IMG/VR virus record: IMGVR_UViG_3300045283_000080
Location: 1-30,784 of that record
Reading direction: 5' to 3' (one strand)
DNA: 30,784 nt
Source of the DNA: a virus
The notes below the pieces were generated by a model that ran no database searches, was not told the DNA's origin, and saw only the letters and a program-made list of their open reading frames with translations. Shown in pieces: positions 8,572-24,093 of the stretch. Within the stretch, counting starts at the first letter, position 1; the number at the start of each line of letters is the position of its first letter. The position numbers were made by a program, and so were the translations under genes.

Positions 8572-9060
8572 CTACTCCTTCTTAGCCGCATCGCTCAAGA
8601 CACCCTTGGCGGTATCAGCCGCATCCGATACTACGCTTCGTGCCTGAGTTTCCGCCGTCGCTACCACGTCCCTTGCGACCTGTTCAGCGAGCGTTAGTTT
8701 GGCAACGGCCGCAGCTGGACTAGTCGTGGACGCCGCGCCCTGAGCGAACCCCGCATCACCCGCCGTTTGAATCGCCTGCGAAGTCAGCCCATCCACCTTG
8801 GCGGAAATGTCCGCGCGCTCGATCTTGGCTTCTTTCTGGTGGCGCAGGATGATCCGGCCGTAGAAAATCATGACCGTGGACGCCAGCAATGCCAGCGAAG
8901 GCAGTACGGTATTGGCGCGGCTCAGGATCAGTTCCAGCGCATTGAAGCAGCGGTTGATAAAGACAATCCACGGATCGGGCGGGGCGCTAGCGTTGGCCGC
9001 TGCAAAGGCCGTGCCGACCATTGCACCGAGCAGCAGGCAGAACAGGTAGAGTTTTTTCAT
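8572..9060 (-). CDS. Membrane protein with signal-like N-terminus (lysis region)
   Basis: This 162-aa protein begins MKKLYLFCLLLGAMVGTAFA, a signal peptide or first membrane helix. A second hydrophobic segment follows at about residues 54-73 (LPSLALLASTVMIFYGRIIL). A long Ala/Asp-rich helical tail (about 75-162) contains repeated AxTA/AxDA patterns likely to form coiled coil. It overlaps the lysozyme stop (ATGA at 9057-9060). By position it could be an i-spanin-like or holin-associated factor, but family features are lacking. The fold suggests one or two spans with a helical soluble tail. Confidence 0.65.
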   Translation of the reverse strand: MKKLYLFCLLLGAMVGTAFAAANASAPPDPWIVFINRCFNALELILSRANTVLPSLALLASTVMIFYGRIILRHQKEAKIERADISAKVDGLTSQAIQTAGDAGFAQGAASTTSPAAAVAKLTLAEQVARDVVATAETQARSVVSDAADTAKGVLSDAAKKE

Positions 9061-9650
9061 GTGGGCACTCCCAAGGCTGATTTAAATTTCAACAACCAAG
9101 CCCGACGATCTTCCAGACCGTTCAGACCCCCATTTACTGCGCGCGTCACTTCTTCCAAACTATCGTGCATCGCATGCAATCCGATATTGTTTTCGATCCA
9201 GAAGTAGCCGGCCGACAGTGCGGCATTCTCAGGCAACGCCATCCGGTCCGGTTGCGCTACCAGTCGGTCATCATCGAATAGTGCCTGCGAGACGTCGGCG
9301 TAATTGCGTTTTCCGGTGATCTGGATAAACCCGGCGCCGCGGTAGTTCCAACCATCGCCGCTCAATTCGTCGCCGTTGCCTAGCCGATTCGCATACACCC
9401 GGTTAGCGATGCGTTGCGGATGATGAGCGTAATCGAGCGCTTGCGACAGCGTGAATCGATGCGGCCAAGTGCGTTGCAGTCCGACACTGCCATAGTTCAG
9501 GTTTTCCGTCAGTATCTCAAAGCCCGCGCTTTCGTGCGCGACTTGGGCAAGAAAATGCGCCTGTTCCAAGGGCGAGCCGATGCCGAAACGCTGCATCGCT
9601 GGAATCAGGGGCGCGCCATTCGGTTCCAGTAGGGTGAGTAAATCGTTCAT
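9057..9650 (-). CDS. Endolysin, GH19 chitinase-like family
   Basis: This 197-aa enzyme is from ATG 9650 (ATGA overlap with the upstream gene; an earlier ATG at 9689 lies inside that gene). The catalytic signature AHFLAQVAHESAGF has the general-acid Glu at residue 40, and a second acidic residue (ILTEN, Glu49) lies nearby. YRGAGFIQITGKRNY at 103-117 is the substrate-groove motif of phage GH19 lysozymes. These enzymes hydrolyse the glycan strands of peptidoglycan. There is no signal peptide or SAR helix, so export through a holin is expected, consistent with the neighbouring membrane genes. Length is typical. Confidence 0.9.
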   Translation of the reverse strand: MNDLLTLLEPNGAPLIPAMQRFGIGSPLEQAHFLAQVAHESAGFEILTENLNYGSVGLQRTWPHRFTLSQALDYAHHPQRIANRVYANRLGNGDELSGDGWNYRGAGFIQITGKRNYADVSQALFDDDRLVAQPDRMALPENAALSAGYFWIENNIGLHAMHDSLEEVTRAVNGGLNGLEDRRAWLLKFKSALGVPT

Positions 9651-9922
9651 TTCGGTGACCAGAAAAAGAGGGCTTTCATGATGACCCATACTGCACCCAG
9701 TGCCGCCATGAAGGCGCTGAAAGCAATGGTAACCTTCCCCACGCCACGGACGAAGGACAGCGCCGCTTTGCCGCCATTGAACAGATTCAATAGTTCAGCG
9801 TTGGAAGCATTGGACTCGGAAAGGGCATTCATGACTTCACGGTGTTTTTCGTCCATATCCTCGCGCAAGTCATCCAAGCGGCGTTCCATTTCGGCGAGTC
9901 GAAAGCGCACGTTGTCATCCAT
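9647..9922 (-). CDS. Holin-like / XhlA-like membrane protein
   Basis: This 91-aa protein has an N-terminal charged coiled coil (residues 1-45: MERRLDDLREDMDEKHREVM). One C-terminal transmembrane helix follows (VTIAFSAFMAALGAVWVIM, about 63-81), then a short tail. Coiled coil plus C-terminal anchor is the layout of XhlA-type and some holin-accessory proteins. It lies directly upstream of the endolysin and overlaps it. The ribosome binding site is AAAGGA upstream of ATG 9922. The holin role is inferred from position and topology. Confidence 0.6.
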   Translation of the reverse strand: MDDNVRFRLAEMERRLDDLREDMDEKHREVMNALSESNASNAELLNLFNGGKAALSFVRGVGKVTIAFSAFMAALGAVWVIMKALFFWSPK

Positions 9923-17861: not shown

Positions 17862-18074
17862 TCATGACACTACTCGAATATCTGCGCCGATTATGTCCGA
17901 GGCCACCGGAGACGTATCCCGAAACTCCCACAACCGTTGGCGCGTTATCCCAAGCTGAGTCGCAGTCATTTCCGGCAGGAAGGTGCCCGTATTGCCGCCG
18001 TCCAGATCCTGCCACGACGACCAGTTCTGGCCGCCATCGTCGCTGTAGCGAACGGAGAGGGTTATATTGCTCAT
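17862..18074 (-). CDS. Detached C-terminal segment of the gp10-like stabilisation protein
   Basis: This 70-aa protein (ITLSVRYSDDGGQNWSSWQD, then GITRQRLWEFRDTSPVASDI) corresponds to the closing segment of P22 gp10-like packaged-DNA stabilisation proteins. There, a V-x-L-R-x-S-D-D-G-G-x-x-W-S stretch and R-L-G-x-x-R-x-R-V-x-E end the chain. Here it is a separate gene, coupled by ATGA (18071-18074) to the LamG-like gene. It may assemble with the gp10-like body or be a cap of the tail neck. An alternative is a small sialidase-repeat-like virion protein. Confidence 0.7.
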   Translation of the reverse strand: MSNITLSVRYSDDGGQNWSSWQDLDGGNTGTFLPEMTATQLGITRQRLWEFRDTSPVASDIIGADIRVVS

Positions 18075-18853
18075 GTCGCGTCGGCCTGAATGGCGGCCAA
18101 CGATTTTCCGGCCCCGCTACTCCAGAGATAATCAAGCTCGTTAGTCGTCAATACTGCGCTCGCGCAAAAGAAAACATCCTCCACCTTGCACGGCGTGTCA
18201 CTGCTGTCGAACTGGTTGCCTATCTGAAAATATTTGATCGTGTCGGCGCGGGGCGCAGGACGCGGCGGAATCGTGTCCACTACAAAGTCTCCATTTACCG
18301 CCAGCTTGAGCAGGTCGGCCGCCGCCCATTCAGCGACCACGAAATACCATCCCGGCAAATTACCCGCTCCGGCGCGAATGGTGATGGACTGCGGCGACAG
18401 GGCCGCATGCCCCAGGGAGTCTAGGCACCGCACGGTGAAATCATATTTCTGTCCCGCCGCATTGGGATCAAGACAGGCATACAGCGCGCCGCTATTGGCC
18501 CAAGACCCCGCCGACCATTTCCCCGAGGGGTTTGCGGCCAGCAGATAAAGGGCTTCATTAGCCCCTGCAAAGTCATAGCCTACAGAAAGAAAAGACGTGT
18601 TATTGAATGCGCCGCTGAAATAGAACCATCCGCCGAGCGTCATCCGGGTATTTACGTCAATAGTGATCGGATTGGTCAGTGTCGAATAACCCCGGCTGCC
18701 CGAGGCCAAGGCTTGCCCGGTCTTGCCAGTCGTGTAACCAGCGAAATTAGACGTGCCCAGGTTCGCAGAACCTATCCCATCTAGTCCATTGCCGTCCAAT
18801 CCGTAGTAGTGCGTGAACTTCGCCAACACGGAAACCGCCAAGGGATTGCTCAT
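18071..18853 (-). CDS. LamG / concanavalin-like lectin-fold virion protein
   Basis: This 260-aa protein reads as a LamG-type jelly roll: a strand pattern from FTHYYGLDGNGLDGIGSANL, the core TRMTLGGWFYFSGAFNNTSF, GWYFVVAEWAAADLLKLAVN (the W-x-x-V x6 L-x-V-N strand of the family), and a closing VEDVFFCASAVLTTNELDYL. Such domains bind sugars or other surface ligands. It lies between the two parts of the gp10-like protein, overlapping both by 4 bp, so it is part of an inserted module. Cys at four positions may form disulfides. Confidence 0.75.
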   Translation of the reverse strand: MSNPLAVSVLAKFTHYYGLDGNGLDGIGSANLGTSNFAGYTTGKTGQALASGSRGYSTLTNPITIDVNTRMTLGGWFYFSGAFNNTSFLSVGYDFAGANEALYLLAANPSGKWSAGSWANSGALYACLDPNAAGQKYDFTVRCLDSLGHAALSPQSITIRAGAGNLPGWYFVVAEWAAADLLKLAVNGDFVVDTIPPRPAPRADTIKYFQIGNQFDSSDTPCKVEDVFFCASAVLTTNELDYLWSSGAGKSLAAIQADAT

Positions 18854-20451
18854 GCGGGCGTCCCGCTAACCGTGATCGTGGCGATAGATAGCGAAATCGA
18901 CAGGCCGGGAGGCAATGCTCCCGAGGAAATCGTGCAACCGCTATACGGCGGAACACCTTGGCTCACTGTCAATGTGTGCGAGTAAGCCGAACCAACTACG
19001 CCATCGGGCAGCGTGCCGGTGATAATCAGCGCCGGAACGACGGTGCAAGTATCGTCCAGCGTCGATGATCCGTAAACGTCGGTCACGGTGACGGCCCATG
19101 CAAACGCACCTGCTGCCGACATCGTTCCGGTAATAACGCCATCTGCACCCATGCTCAGGCCGGTGGGCAGCGCGCCGGCCGTGATCGTGCAGACGGGCGA
19201 ACAGCCCACAATCACATACGAATAGTCTATCTCGTCGCCAGTTTCTCCAGCGGGCAGATCGCCGGAAATTAGGGGCGCTCCCGGAGTGCTTACCACGCCT
19301 CCTGTTGCCAACATGACGCGCAATCCGGCCACCGAAATGCGGTTTCCGTTGTTGTGAATAACCCCGGTACGAATGCGCCGGGGCAATAATTCGCAACCCT
19401 CCAGCGCGTAGCGCCAATCGAGCCGATACAAGCGCCCGTCCGAGTAATCGCCACCGTACCAGTCGTTGTTCCACTTGAGCAGGGTATTCAAGCGCCAGCG
19501 GTCCAGTCCAAACGACTCGCGACGGTGCCATTGCTGGTTGGTGACATCGAAACCCCAGGTCTGGCCGTCCTGAAAGGTCAGGTAGTAAATGACGTAGCCG
19601 TTGTCCTCATAGGTGAAGGCAAAGGCTTTATCGGGATTGCTGGCGGCAAAGACTTCGGTCAGGGCTTTGGGCGAGACCGGAATCGGCGTGTAGCCTTGCA
19701 GCTTGTAGACGATATAATCGTTGCCGAGGAAATAAAGCGTATTGTCGAGCCGGCAAATCGTGTTCGCGTTCGCGCAGCCTTTTTCGATGACCGTGCCGCG
19801 CTGGGGAAAGGCCGAGGTATCGTTCGGGTTGTTCGGCCAGACCTCAATCGTGCGACCGCCGAACACGAGCCATTCCGACTGCGATACCTTGCCGCCCACA
19901 ATGCGATCCGGGGAGGATTCGGCGTCCTCGTTGTCCAGATCATTCCAACTGGTGCCCGACGCAAGGCCCGAATAGCGCCAGAACCGGCGCAGGGGGTCCA
20001 CGCCGAGGAACCGCTGATTCAGGAAGTCCACCGAGAACAGGGCAATGCCGGTATTGGTCAGCACGCCCGTCACAGTGTTGTAGACGTAGGACGTGCTGAA
20101 GGTGCCGATCAACAGTTCATTGCCGCCGTCGATCTGGTTATGGGTCATCGACACGAAGCCCGTGCCGGGGATAGTCCCAATGACGGTCGCGGTGCCGGTC
20201 ACGCCAATCTGATACAGGACGGTGCCCGAGACAACAAACAGCTTGCCTTCCACATCCTCCGCGCCCCGGTGAGGGCCGGTGCCAACGCGGACGAACAGGT
20301 TCAAGCCAGGCACACAGGCGTACTTTATCGCCGTGCGGGTGCCGCTACGCTCCGCCTTGGTCGGCAGGTAGTTGACGATATCCTGATCGGTCCATTCCCG
20401 CGTGTGGTCCGCGTAGGAGCCGTCCGGCAAGGGGAAAGGGGTCCAATCCAT
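18850..20451 (-). CDS. gp10-like packaged-DNA stabilisation protein with C-terminal Ig-like domains
   Basis: This is a 533-aa protein. Residues 1-385 follow P22 gp10-type stabilisation proteins: a QDIVNYLPTKAE start, GVDPLRRFWRYSGLASGTSW, EDAESSPDRIVGGKVSQSEW, NTLYFLGNDYIVYKLQGYTP, and QTWGFDVTNQQWHRRESFG. The family then normally continues into its own C-terminal strand region. Here the chain switches at about residue 390 to two Ig-like repeats of the putative-Ig (He_PIG) type: GALPTGLSMGADGVITGTMS and GALPPGLSISLSIATITVSG. P22 gp10 is a tail accessory factor plugging the portal. The Ig-like end is not a standard part of the family. Confidence 0.8.
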   Translation of the reverse strand: MDWTPFPLPDGSYADHTREWTDQDIVNYLPTKAERSGTRTAIKYACVPGLNLFVRVGTGPHRGAEDVEGKLFVVSGTVLYQIGVTGTATVIGTIPGTGFVSMTHNQIDGGNELLIGTFSTSYVYNTVTGVLTNTGIALFSVDFLNQRFLGVDPLRRFWRYSGLASGTSWNDLDNEDAESSPDRIVGGKVSQSEWLVFGGRTIEVWPNNPNDTSAFPQRGTVIEKGCANANTICRLDNTLYFLGNDYIVYKLQGYTPIPVSPKALTEVFAASNPDKAFAFTYEDNGYVIYYLTFQDGQTWGFDVTNQQWHRRESFGLDRWRLNTLLKWNNDWYGGDYSDGRLYRLDWRYALEGCELLPRRIRTGVIHNNGNRISVAGLRVMLATGGVVSTPGAPLISGDLPAGETGDEIDYSYVIVGCSPVCTITAGALPTGLSMGADGVITGTMSAAGAFAWAVTVTDVYGSSTLDDTCTVVPALIITGTLPDGVVGSAYSHTLTVSQGVPPYSGCTISSGALPPGLSISLSIATITVSGTPA

Positions 20452-20861
20452 CAGTAGGAATCACTGTAGAAATAACCATATCGGCGCGAATTGCTGCCGA
20501 GCGGCAAATCGTAATCGAGGCGAGCCGCGTCACACGCAGCCACATCGGCCATCACGCAGGCTTTGCCATCGCGGGCAAAGGCCACCAAAACGGGGTTCAG
20601 CGGCAGCCCATAGCGCGGCTGCAAAAGGACGGCGAGATTATGCTGGATCGCTTGTTCGGCTTCGGGAGGCACGGGAAGCGTGTCCGCAGGCGCGGCCACA
20701 TCGGCCCAGCCCAAGGCAATCCCGTCGGCTTCCCAACGCCGCATCATGAGATTGAGCGCGCGAATGGCGTCTTCCGAGTCCTGCGCCTTGACGGCTTGGG
20801 TCGGGTCCAGCACCAGCGCATCCAACAACGCGCCCCGGATAATCGCGGATACCTGCGTCAT
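20451..20861 (-). CDS. P22 gp4-like head completion / tail accessory factor
   Basis: This 136-aa protein starts at ATG 20861 (AAAGGAG upstream; a further ATG at 20879 is less likely). The helix ALNLMMRRWEADGIALGWAD is followed by LPVPPEAEQAIQHNLAVLLQ, RYGLPLNPVLVA and YDLPLG. This matches the conserved pattern of phage gp4-like proteins that bind the portal after packaging. It lies between the coat gene and the gp10-like gene, as in P22. P22 gp4 also has muralytic activity; no active-site claim can be made here. Confidence 0.8.
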   Translation of the reverse strand: MTQVSAIIRGALLDALVLDPTQAVKAQDSEDAIRALNLMMRRWEADGIALGWADVAAPADTLPVPPEAEQAIQHNLAVLLQPRYGLPLNPVLVAFARDGKACVMADVAACDAARLDYDLPLGSNSRRYGYFYSDSY

Positions 20862-20933
20862 AACCGCTCCTTTAGGCAAAACTCAACACAGTCGCCGTTT
20901 TTCTAGCCAGAGTGTTGATTGACAGAATTCCTT

Positions 20934-23133: not shown

Positions 23134-24093
23134 TCAGTAGCTCGGATACCACTTTGCCGTGGTGTGGTCATAAAAAAGCGTCATCGGCTTACTGACGACG
23201 GCGGTCGAGGCAATGGCGATATTTCCGTCGTTGGTTGTGTGCCAGATGCCGGTGGGAATCAGGGTGATCTGACCGCCACCAGCGGCGAATGCGGCCGGGG
23301 CGGTGATGTTGACGATGTCGGTCGTGCCGGAGACAAAGCTGATGGCTTTCGTCGGCGCAATGGTCGTTCCACTGGAAAGTGTAGGAGCAGCCGCCGAGGT
23401 CGCCATCTGTCCGACCCAAACCAGCGTGCCGTCGTCTTTGATGCGACCCGCTTCGACAGAGCCGCCGACGCTGCCGCCCATGGAAATAACCATGTCAGTC
23501 GGAATAACGCCAGCCGAAACTGCGCCAGTAACCACCGCTTCGATTATGGCCGGATTTTGGATCGCCGAGCCGTCATACCCTCCCCAATAAAGACCGCCGA
23601 TAGCGTCGCCCGACTGGAGCGCGGCAGGGGCTGCTGCCGTGCCGCGCGTTTTATTGAGAAATAATCCCGGCCCCGTCGCGCCATTGCTGAAATCTACTGC
23701 AAAAAAACTGCTGCCGCCGCCATTACCGTTGTTGCCTAACGCGACAAACCCTTGCACACCTGTAGGCGCGAAAGTTTCCCAATCGGCAATCGACACGGGC
23801 CCCTGAATCACCGCATTCATTGCAGTGTTGTTGGTCTTTAGCAGAAGATTGTAGGTGCCAAGATCGACCGTCGTATCCGCGCTCAGCGAACTTCCAATCG
23901 CCAAGCTGCTGCTGCTGATTGCGCCGTTTTTATCGACCGAAAACAAAGGTGTGCCATTGCGACTTATTTTGATAAATGTCGAATCATCGGCAGACCCGGT
24001 GTCGCGAATATCGATATCAATCGCAGATTGGGTAACGGTGGCGTCGTCCCATGTGTCATCCATGAGAACGATGGCGTTGGCATTGGGTTTCAT
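23134..24093 (-). CDS. Fibre-like virion protein between portal and scaffold
   Basis: This is a 319-aa beta-rich protein. N-terminal segments (FIKISRNGTPLFSVDKNGAI, SADTTVDLGTYNLLLKTNN), then ALQSGDAIGGLYWGGYDGSA with PAIIEAVVTGAVSAG, and RIKDDGTLVWVGQM are the vocabulary of phage fibre and chaperone-bearing appendage proteins. The ATG overlaps the portal stop. In P22 nothing sits between portal and scaffold, so this is an inserted gene, probably a head-exposed or portal-vertex fibre. No C-terminal autoproteolytic Ser-Lys dyad is obvious. Confidence 0.65.
   Translation of the reverse strand: MKPNANAIVLMDDTWDDATVTQSAIDIDIRDTGSADDSTFIKISRNGTPLFSVDKNGAISSSSLAIGSSLSADTTVDLGTYNLLLKTNNTAMNAVIQGPVSIADWETFAPTGVQGFVALGNNGNGGGSSFFAVDFSNGATGPGLFLNKTRGTAAAPAALQSGDAIGGLYWGGYDGSAIQNPAIIEAVVTGAVSAGVIPTDMVISMGGSVGGSVEAGRIKDDGTLVWVGQMATSAAAPTLSSGTTIAPTKAISFVSGTTDIVNITAPAAFAAGGGQITLIPTGIWHTTNDGNIAIASTAVVSKPMTLFYDHTTAKWYPSY

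Follow-up and report, generated by a model that had tools for sequence, protein, structure and literature searches.

A P22-type gp10 gene apparently split in trans around Ig-like and LamG-like modules at a recurrent platform loop

Why should a phage encode as separate proteins what its relatives make as a single chain, and what would hold the pieces together? Gp10 of phage P22 (Hc3), the 'packaged DNA stabilisation' protein, forms a hexamer at the tail hub and seals the DNA. In the stretch of viral DNA analysed here (the window, 30,784 nucleotides long), the material of such a protein is distributed over the minus strand. Gene 1 (18850-20451, 533 aa) carries a gp10/Hc3 body with an Ig-like extension; gene 2 (18071-18853, 260 aa) is a separate ORF of LamG/concanavalin-like type; gene 3 (17862-18074, 70 aa), again a separate ORF, is the gp10 C-terminal segment (CTD). 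Successive genes share 4-bp ATGA overlaps, at 18850-18853 and 18071-18074. An earlier note on this DNA, whose coordinates, strand, lengths and overlaps were all correct, had read the arrangement as a gp10-like gene split into separately translated parts around adhesion domains. This reading is supported by the recurrence of the split at the same loop in other loci.

The genomic place of the three genes is that of P22 gp10, between the gp4 adaptor and the ejection genes. The minus strand of the window bears a P22-like morphogenesis module in the order terminase, portal, scaffold, coat, gp4, the three genes, ejection gene, which is the gene order of P22 (portal, coat, gp4, gp10, ejection genes). 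Profile searches recover the P22 portal (E=2e-183) and the P22 coat (E=1.7e-32). As in P22, the upstream partner of gp10 is a gp4-like head-tail adaptor gene (Ad3; 20451-20879, minus strand; P22_Tail-4 of Pfam, E=7.6e-8; phrog_637, E=3.1e-27), and a phrog_598 DNA-ejection gene follows gene 3. Between portal and scaffold, an odd location, a gene at 23134-24093 weakly matches a tail-fibre family (phrog_9942, E=1.7e-6). Elsewhere the window codes for a GH19-like endolysin (9057-9689; phrog_181, E=5e-65) and, on the plus strand, for a DUF6745 protein (1020-2486; E=2.8e-48).

The homology of the parts is directly established. Residues 1-387 of gene 1 (19291-20451, minus strand), comprising N-terminal platform strands and a beta-propeller, match the phrog_578 'head closure Hc3' profile over positions 1-400 of 486 (E=4.7e-88), as well as PDB entries 9vyg (Pan3 stabilisation protein, 5e-22) and 7eeq (Pam1 needle head protein, 1e-19). 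Gene 3 matches the stretch of the same profile directly next to that of the body, positions 409-469 of 486 (E=8.7e-4), and shares 48% identity with the CTD at the N-terminus of a circularly permuted relative (L002). In tblastn searches it matches only gp10 C-termini, among them those of intact 'stabilization proteins', where the match lies directly behind the body. Both identifications made from the letters alone, of the body in gene 1 and of the normal gp10 C-terminal segment in the 70-aa gene, are borne out, and when alignments of the small protein elsewhere were sought, it aligned over its full length only with the gp10 C-terminus. Matches to Pfam BNR and to sialidases in the PDB were rejected as an Asp-box-like 'SDDGG.W' similarity, because they span about 10-30 residues, whereas the match to gp10 profiles takes in almost all of the 70 aa. 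Comparison of the junctions of intact, split and permuted loci puts the break point in a '..GLRVMLATG' loop (19280-19302, minus strand). Intact relatives bridge the distance from this loop to the SDDGG segment with 6-14 aa; in Vibrio phage 1.211.A, for example, body and CTD lie in one CDS with 14 aa between them. P22 gp10 and the GenBank phage records that we found likewise have body and CTD in one chain, without an adhesin module, whereas in the window they are two proteins separated by Ig and LamG-like material. The C-terminal segment of phrog_578 is present, as gene 3, yet since body and CTD stand on separate ORFs rather than in a single polypeptide, the gp10 of the window is a variant and not a standard member of the family.

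The material that separates the two gp10 pieces begins with a complete He_PIG Ig-like domain (19030-19287, minus strand; PF05345, E=1.6e-9), at the new C-terminus of the body; it scores 38.5 bits against a Pfam cut-off of 24 and 65.5 bits with an Ig profile built in this analysis. Half a second Ig-like domain follows (18865-19029, minus strand; profile positions 7-59 of 103), and gene 1 then stops at ..SGTPA. Where two Ig-like repeats had been announced, the first is thus a full He_PIG domain while only about half of the second is present, making about one and a half repeats. Searched against Pfam as a whole (E cut-off 0.1), neither gene 1 nor gene 2 gave a match. The LamG type that had been attributed to gene 2 is a weak label that comes by way of a homologue, the equivalent gene of locus L015 (30% identity, 2e-32), whose match to Laminin_G_3 (PF13385; E=1.8e-4, 22.1 bits) is itself below the cut-off of 27.6; gene 2 has no Pfam match of its own. 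No relatives of gene 2 were found in solved structures or in the phage collection, and its product is a separate protein without visible anchor to that of gene 1. L015 has the same three-gene layout as the window, and the gp10 tree places the two in separate clades. The sole Ig domain of L015 is cut about half way, ending at the same position as the second Ig domain of the window, and the LamG-like genes of both (in L015, 16252-17028) weakly match the missing Ig half, with 9.2 bits in the window and 7.3 bits in L015. This half-Ig pattern could be a second trans-split, within the Ig fold, or chance.

Is the window a singular case? Scans of viral contigs and of genome contigs, each locus being read by profile, yielded 133 loci, with counts that depend on similarity searching and should not be read as unbiased frequencies; in the genome contigs, query A3 gave matches and query A1 none. 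Intact genes account for 78 loci (77 distinct records, among which an in-frame insert, L075, is counted) and split ones for 37 (32 distinct records, window included). Five are circularly permuted (L002, L018, L020, L021 and L079, the last cut by its contig end), ten are truncated by contig ends, and three, fetched by their portal, do not reach gp10. The CTD is thereby found in four layouts, intact, split in trans, permuted or behind an in-frame insertion, all of them at the same '..DTG' loop: the break point is conserved and it recurs. Every split locus has exactly one CTD, and Ig, propeller or lectin-like material is nearly always attached to the body. In the permuted loci the CTD sits at the N-terminus, linked through a few residues to the body, which closes at that loop with an Ig and a variable domain; the window, with its CTD in a distinct downstream ORF, does not have this single-ORF layout. 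In-frame insertion occurs in two cases, L075, with 156 aa inserted within the loop, and a bacterial genome, G303, where a GTA_TIM barrel (PF13547, E=1.2e-112) lies in frame in the loop and the CTD occupies residues 929-990. The gp10 of G303 is 997 aa long (L156; G303:C2, 358-3348), and the same contig holds a second copy, L158, about 37 kb away. The longest gap seen between body and CTD, about 1.6 kb, is in L082 (6569-8195), where at least two extra ORFs intervene. Small genes between gp10 and the ejection genes look, by eye only, like aspartyl/asparaginyl hydroxylases in L002 (3134-3682) and L021 (7944-8480), and like acetyltransferases in L019 (7939-8388) and L013 (18011-18460). As to whether gp10 relatives devoid of the C-terminal segment are common, a body without a CTD was found at none of the 133 surveyed loci wherever downstream sequence sufficed. 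With a split-type CTD as query, the GenBank phage collection returned 31 records, all overlapping a gp10-type gene and/or a 'hypothetical protein' at the same place; no split gp10 was recognised among these 31.

A split gene of this kind might be thought to result from decay, or from an error of assembly or sequencing, the CTD being then a non-functional remnant. The window is, after all, a metagenomic virus record, and in one contig (L036, 5832-8339) the gp10 body is broken over two frames, which may be a sequencing error. However, the split is also present in bacterial genomes, cultured strains included: [Pseudomonas] hibiscicola ATCC 19867, Stenotrophomonas sp. BIGb0135 and S. koreensis DSM 17805. 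Searching whole genomes in the family to which ATCC 19867 (G001) belongs, 395 in all, found a full gp10 in 17 of them, nine split, seven intact and one with an in-frame insertion, and no body without a CTD among these 17. Moreover, purifying selection acts on the CTD where it is a separate gene, with a median dN/dS of 0.13 over 43 non-independent pairs. Together with the single CTD of every split locus and its tight co-variation with the body, described below, this makes decay or artefact extremely improbable.

Another way to deny a real split would be to suppose that programmed frameshifting joins the three ORFs into one gp10-Ig-LamG-CTD polyprotein. The overlaps are short, each step in the window goes to the -1 frame, and the second Ig domain is cut exactly at the stop of gene 1, so that a shift could repair it. 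By contrast, no slippery heptamer is visible by eye at the two junctions of the window, and the position and relative frame of the CTD start vary over 36 split loci. Mostly this start lies at -8 to +24 nt of the body stop, in differing frames; the full range is -41 to +104 nt without an intervening gene, and 769-1616 nt with intervening genes. Even in a near-identical pair, L029/L030, the CTD starts at -8 and +1 nt, respectively. Many split loci have junctions of the form TGATG, TAATG or TGACATG. That the CTD start shifts in distance and in frame relative to the body stop favours restart of translation over frameshifting, and we consider the polyprotein very unlikely. For a gene that is really split, the downstream border would offer an advantage: with a stop and a restart there, a new cassette has to be in frame at its upstream border alone, and this would make exchange easier.

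The history of the locus is consistent with such exchange. In a maximum-likelihood tree of 71 bodies, at least seven changes among the intact, split and permuted layouts are required. The sister of the window is a permuted locus, L018 (support 99/86), and an intact one, L019, belongs to the same four-row clade (support 100/99). Body and CTD are co-inherited: over the split loci, pairwise BLAST identities of body and CTD correlate with a Spearman coefficient of 0.88, against 0.14 for body and distal module. The distal module is replaced: in split pairs with bodies 90-100% identical, mean identity is 92% for the CTD and 9% for the distal module, which gives no BLAST match at all in 8 of the 10 pairs. 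At the DNA level, similarity ends within about 60 nt past the body in five of seven close pairs (L024/L025 and L014/L062, which share more of the distal module, are the exceptions) and in six of the seven it returns no more than about 20 nt from the CTD start. Similarity that stops past the body and returns at the CTD, for instance in L053/L058 and L029/L030, is as expected of cassette exchange.

The same data bear on the possibility that the 70-aa protein acts on its own, as an adaptor or a tailspike-docking protein for example, the body managing without a CTD. The protein does have its own ORF, separated from the body in the window by an entire gene. It has nevertheless kept the gp10 sequence pattern and, as just seen, it varies with the body; relatives that are permuted or carry an in-frame insertion hold it in the same chain as the body, always in one copy, and the search for a body lacking it was fruitless. 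A stand-alone role is, in our opinion, unlikely. We prefer to think of a CTD that reassociates with its body.

Can the gp10 fold accommodate a chain opened at this loop? The AlphaFold2 model of the intact relative of the window, L019 (pLDDT 92, pTM 0.90), shows the propeller and platform of Hc3, and it superposes over its full length on gp10 of P22, Sf6, Pam1 and Pan3 with TM scores of 0.82-0.86 (PDB 8eap and 8u10 for P22, at 0.85; 7sg7 for Sf6; 7eeq for Pam1; 9vyg for Pan3), proteins to whose family the gp10 of the window belongs by profile. In the model of permuted L018 (pLDDT 88, pTM 0.84), the CTD displays a comparable strand run. The Foldseek TM score of this model to P22 gp10 is 0.54, with an aligner that follows sequence order and with an extra Ig domain in the model; such a value is what permutation and the additional Ig would give, and it is compatible with a CTD placed either as in P22 or elsewhere. 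Two related machines can be compared. In the T7 gp12 nozzle, the N-terminal 45 residues and the C-terminal domain together make up the platform jelly-roll, and the authors of that work suggested that a circular permutation had taken place in the past (PMC6702177); the SU10 nozzle has a beta-propeller and a platform of N- and C-terminal parts that touches two adaptor subunits (PMC9509320), and in both phages it is this composite platform that contacts the adaptor (PMC6702177, PMC9509320). A platform built from both termini would explain tolerance of permutation and splitting. T7 gp12, however, is one chain, whereas the gp10 relatives considered here mix several topologies, trans-splitting included, among close relatives.

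There is then the question of what the modules do. Over the split loci, He_PIG is present in 20 of 30 distal modules, followed by BNR or WD40-like propellers, Laminin_G_3 and DUF7483. It might be that gp10 is split as we propose and that the modules are structural, stiffening the tail or contacting the capsid, rather than binding a receptor or a matrix. He_PIG domains frequently serve as spacers, and the inserted Ig-like domains of SU10 nozzle proteins have a structural use (PMC9509320). The Ig domains of SU10 lie within the propeller of a single-chain protein and make up the tail tip, while those of the window are at the platform loop of a split protein. More to the point, phages with 97% identical bodies have had the distal part exchanged as a whole, and the fold class of this part changes (BNR or WD40-like propeller, Laminin_G_3, GTA_TIM); this fits recognition more readily than an unchanging structural role. 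A purely structural function is thus the less probable choice, while keeping appreciable weight. Gut phages have been reported to carry modular Ig-like adhesins (PMC13370021). Virion proteins of tailed phages bear adhesins in which He_PIG-type Ig domains go together with lectin or propeller heads, much like the modules of the window; unlike them, the module of the window is anchored on the tail hub and tied to the splitting or permutation of the hub protein.

It seems to us quite likely, all in all, that the gp10 of the window has been opened at the platform loop, that its CTD reassociates non-covalently, and that the new C-terminus displays exchangeable adhesin-like modules at the neck. The scenario would run as follows. 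A P22-type gp10 gene (tail hub/Hc3) would have been opened at one surface loop of the platform domain, with the body now ending in Ig-like domains, a LamG-like gene coming next, and the last 65 or so gp10 residues becoming a small separate protein. The three genes are probably translated in a coupled manner. The strands of the CTD would re-enter the gp10 platform fold without covalent link, and from the freed C-terminus of the body the modules would reach outward where head and tail meet, in presumably six copies per virion; this placement at the tail neck is inferred by analogy with the solved homologues. There, to judge from their fold class and variability, the modules may bind sugars of the host surface or of the matrix. 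Since splitting, permutation and insertion all fall at one place in the relatives, the platform loop resembles a natural docking port at which surface modules can be swapped. Whether this is general, with the tail hub carrying exchangeable binding modules and a frame-free border that speeds their exchange as an evolvability device, is a proposition to which we give even chances.

The family and its fold are already known, and a fixed permutation has already been suggested for T7. Of the openly available published papers that we searched, none was found to describe a trans-split gp10, an actively switching gp10 topology or this port for modules. For annotators there is a warning here, in that gp10 C-termini can appear as orphan 70-aa genes; for engineers, a natural split-protein site that could serve for display on phage particles. 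For phage biology, the interest is that many wild phages appear to rely on two separately produced pieces of a protein that is essential to the virion and belongs to a well-studied machine; with permutation, insertion and splitting all using one spot, the tolerance of the hub to chain breaks becomes testable. This spot is also a possible carrier site for host-recognition or sugar-binding modules, to our knowledge a new one. If the docking-port reading is true, an evolvability device would sit at the neck of these phages, not at the tip of their tail.
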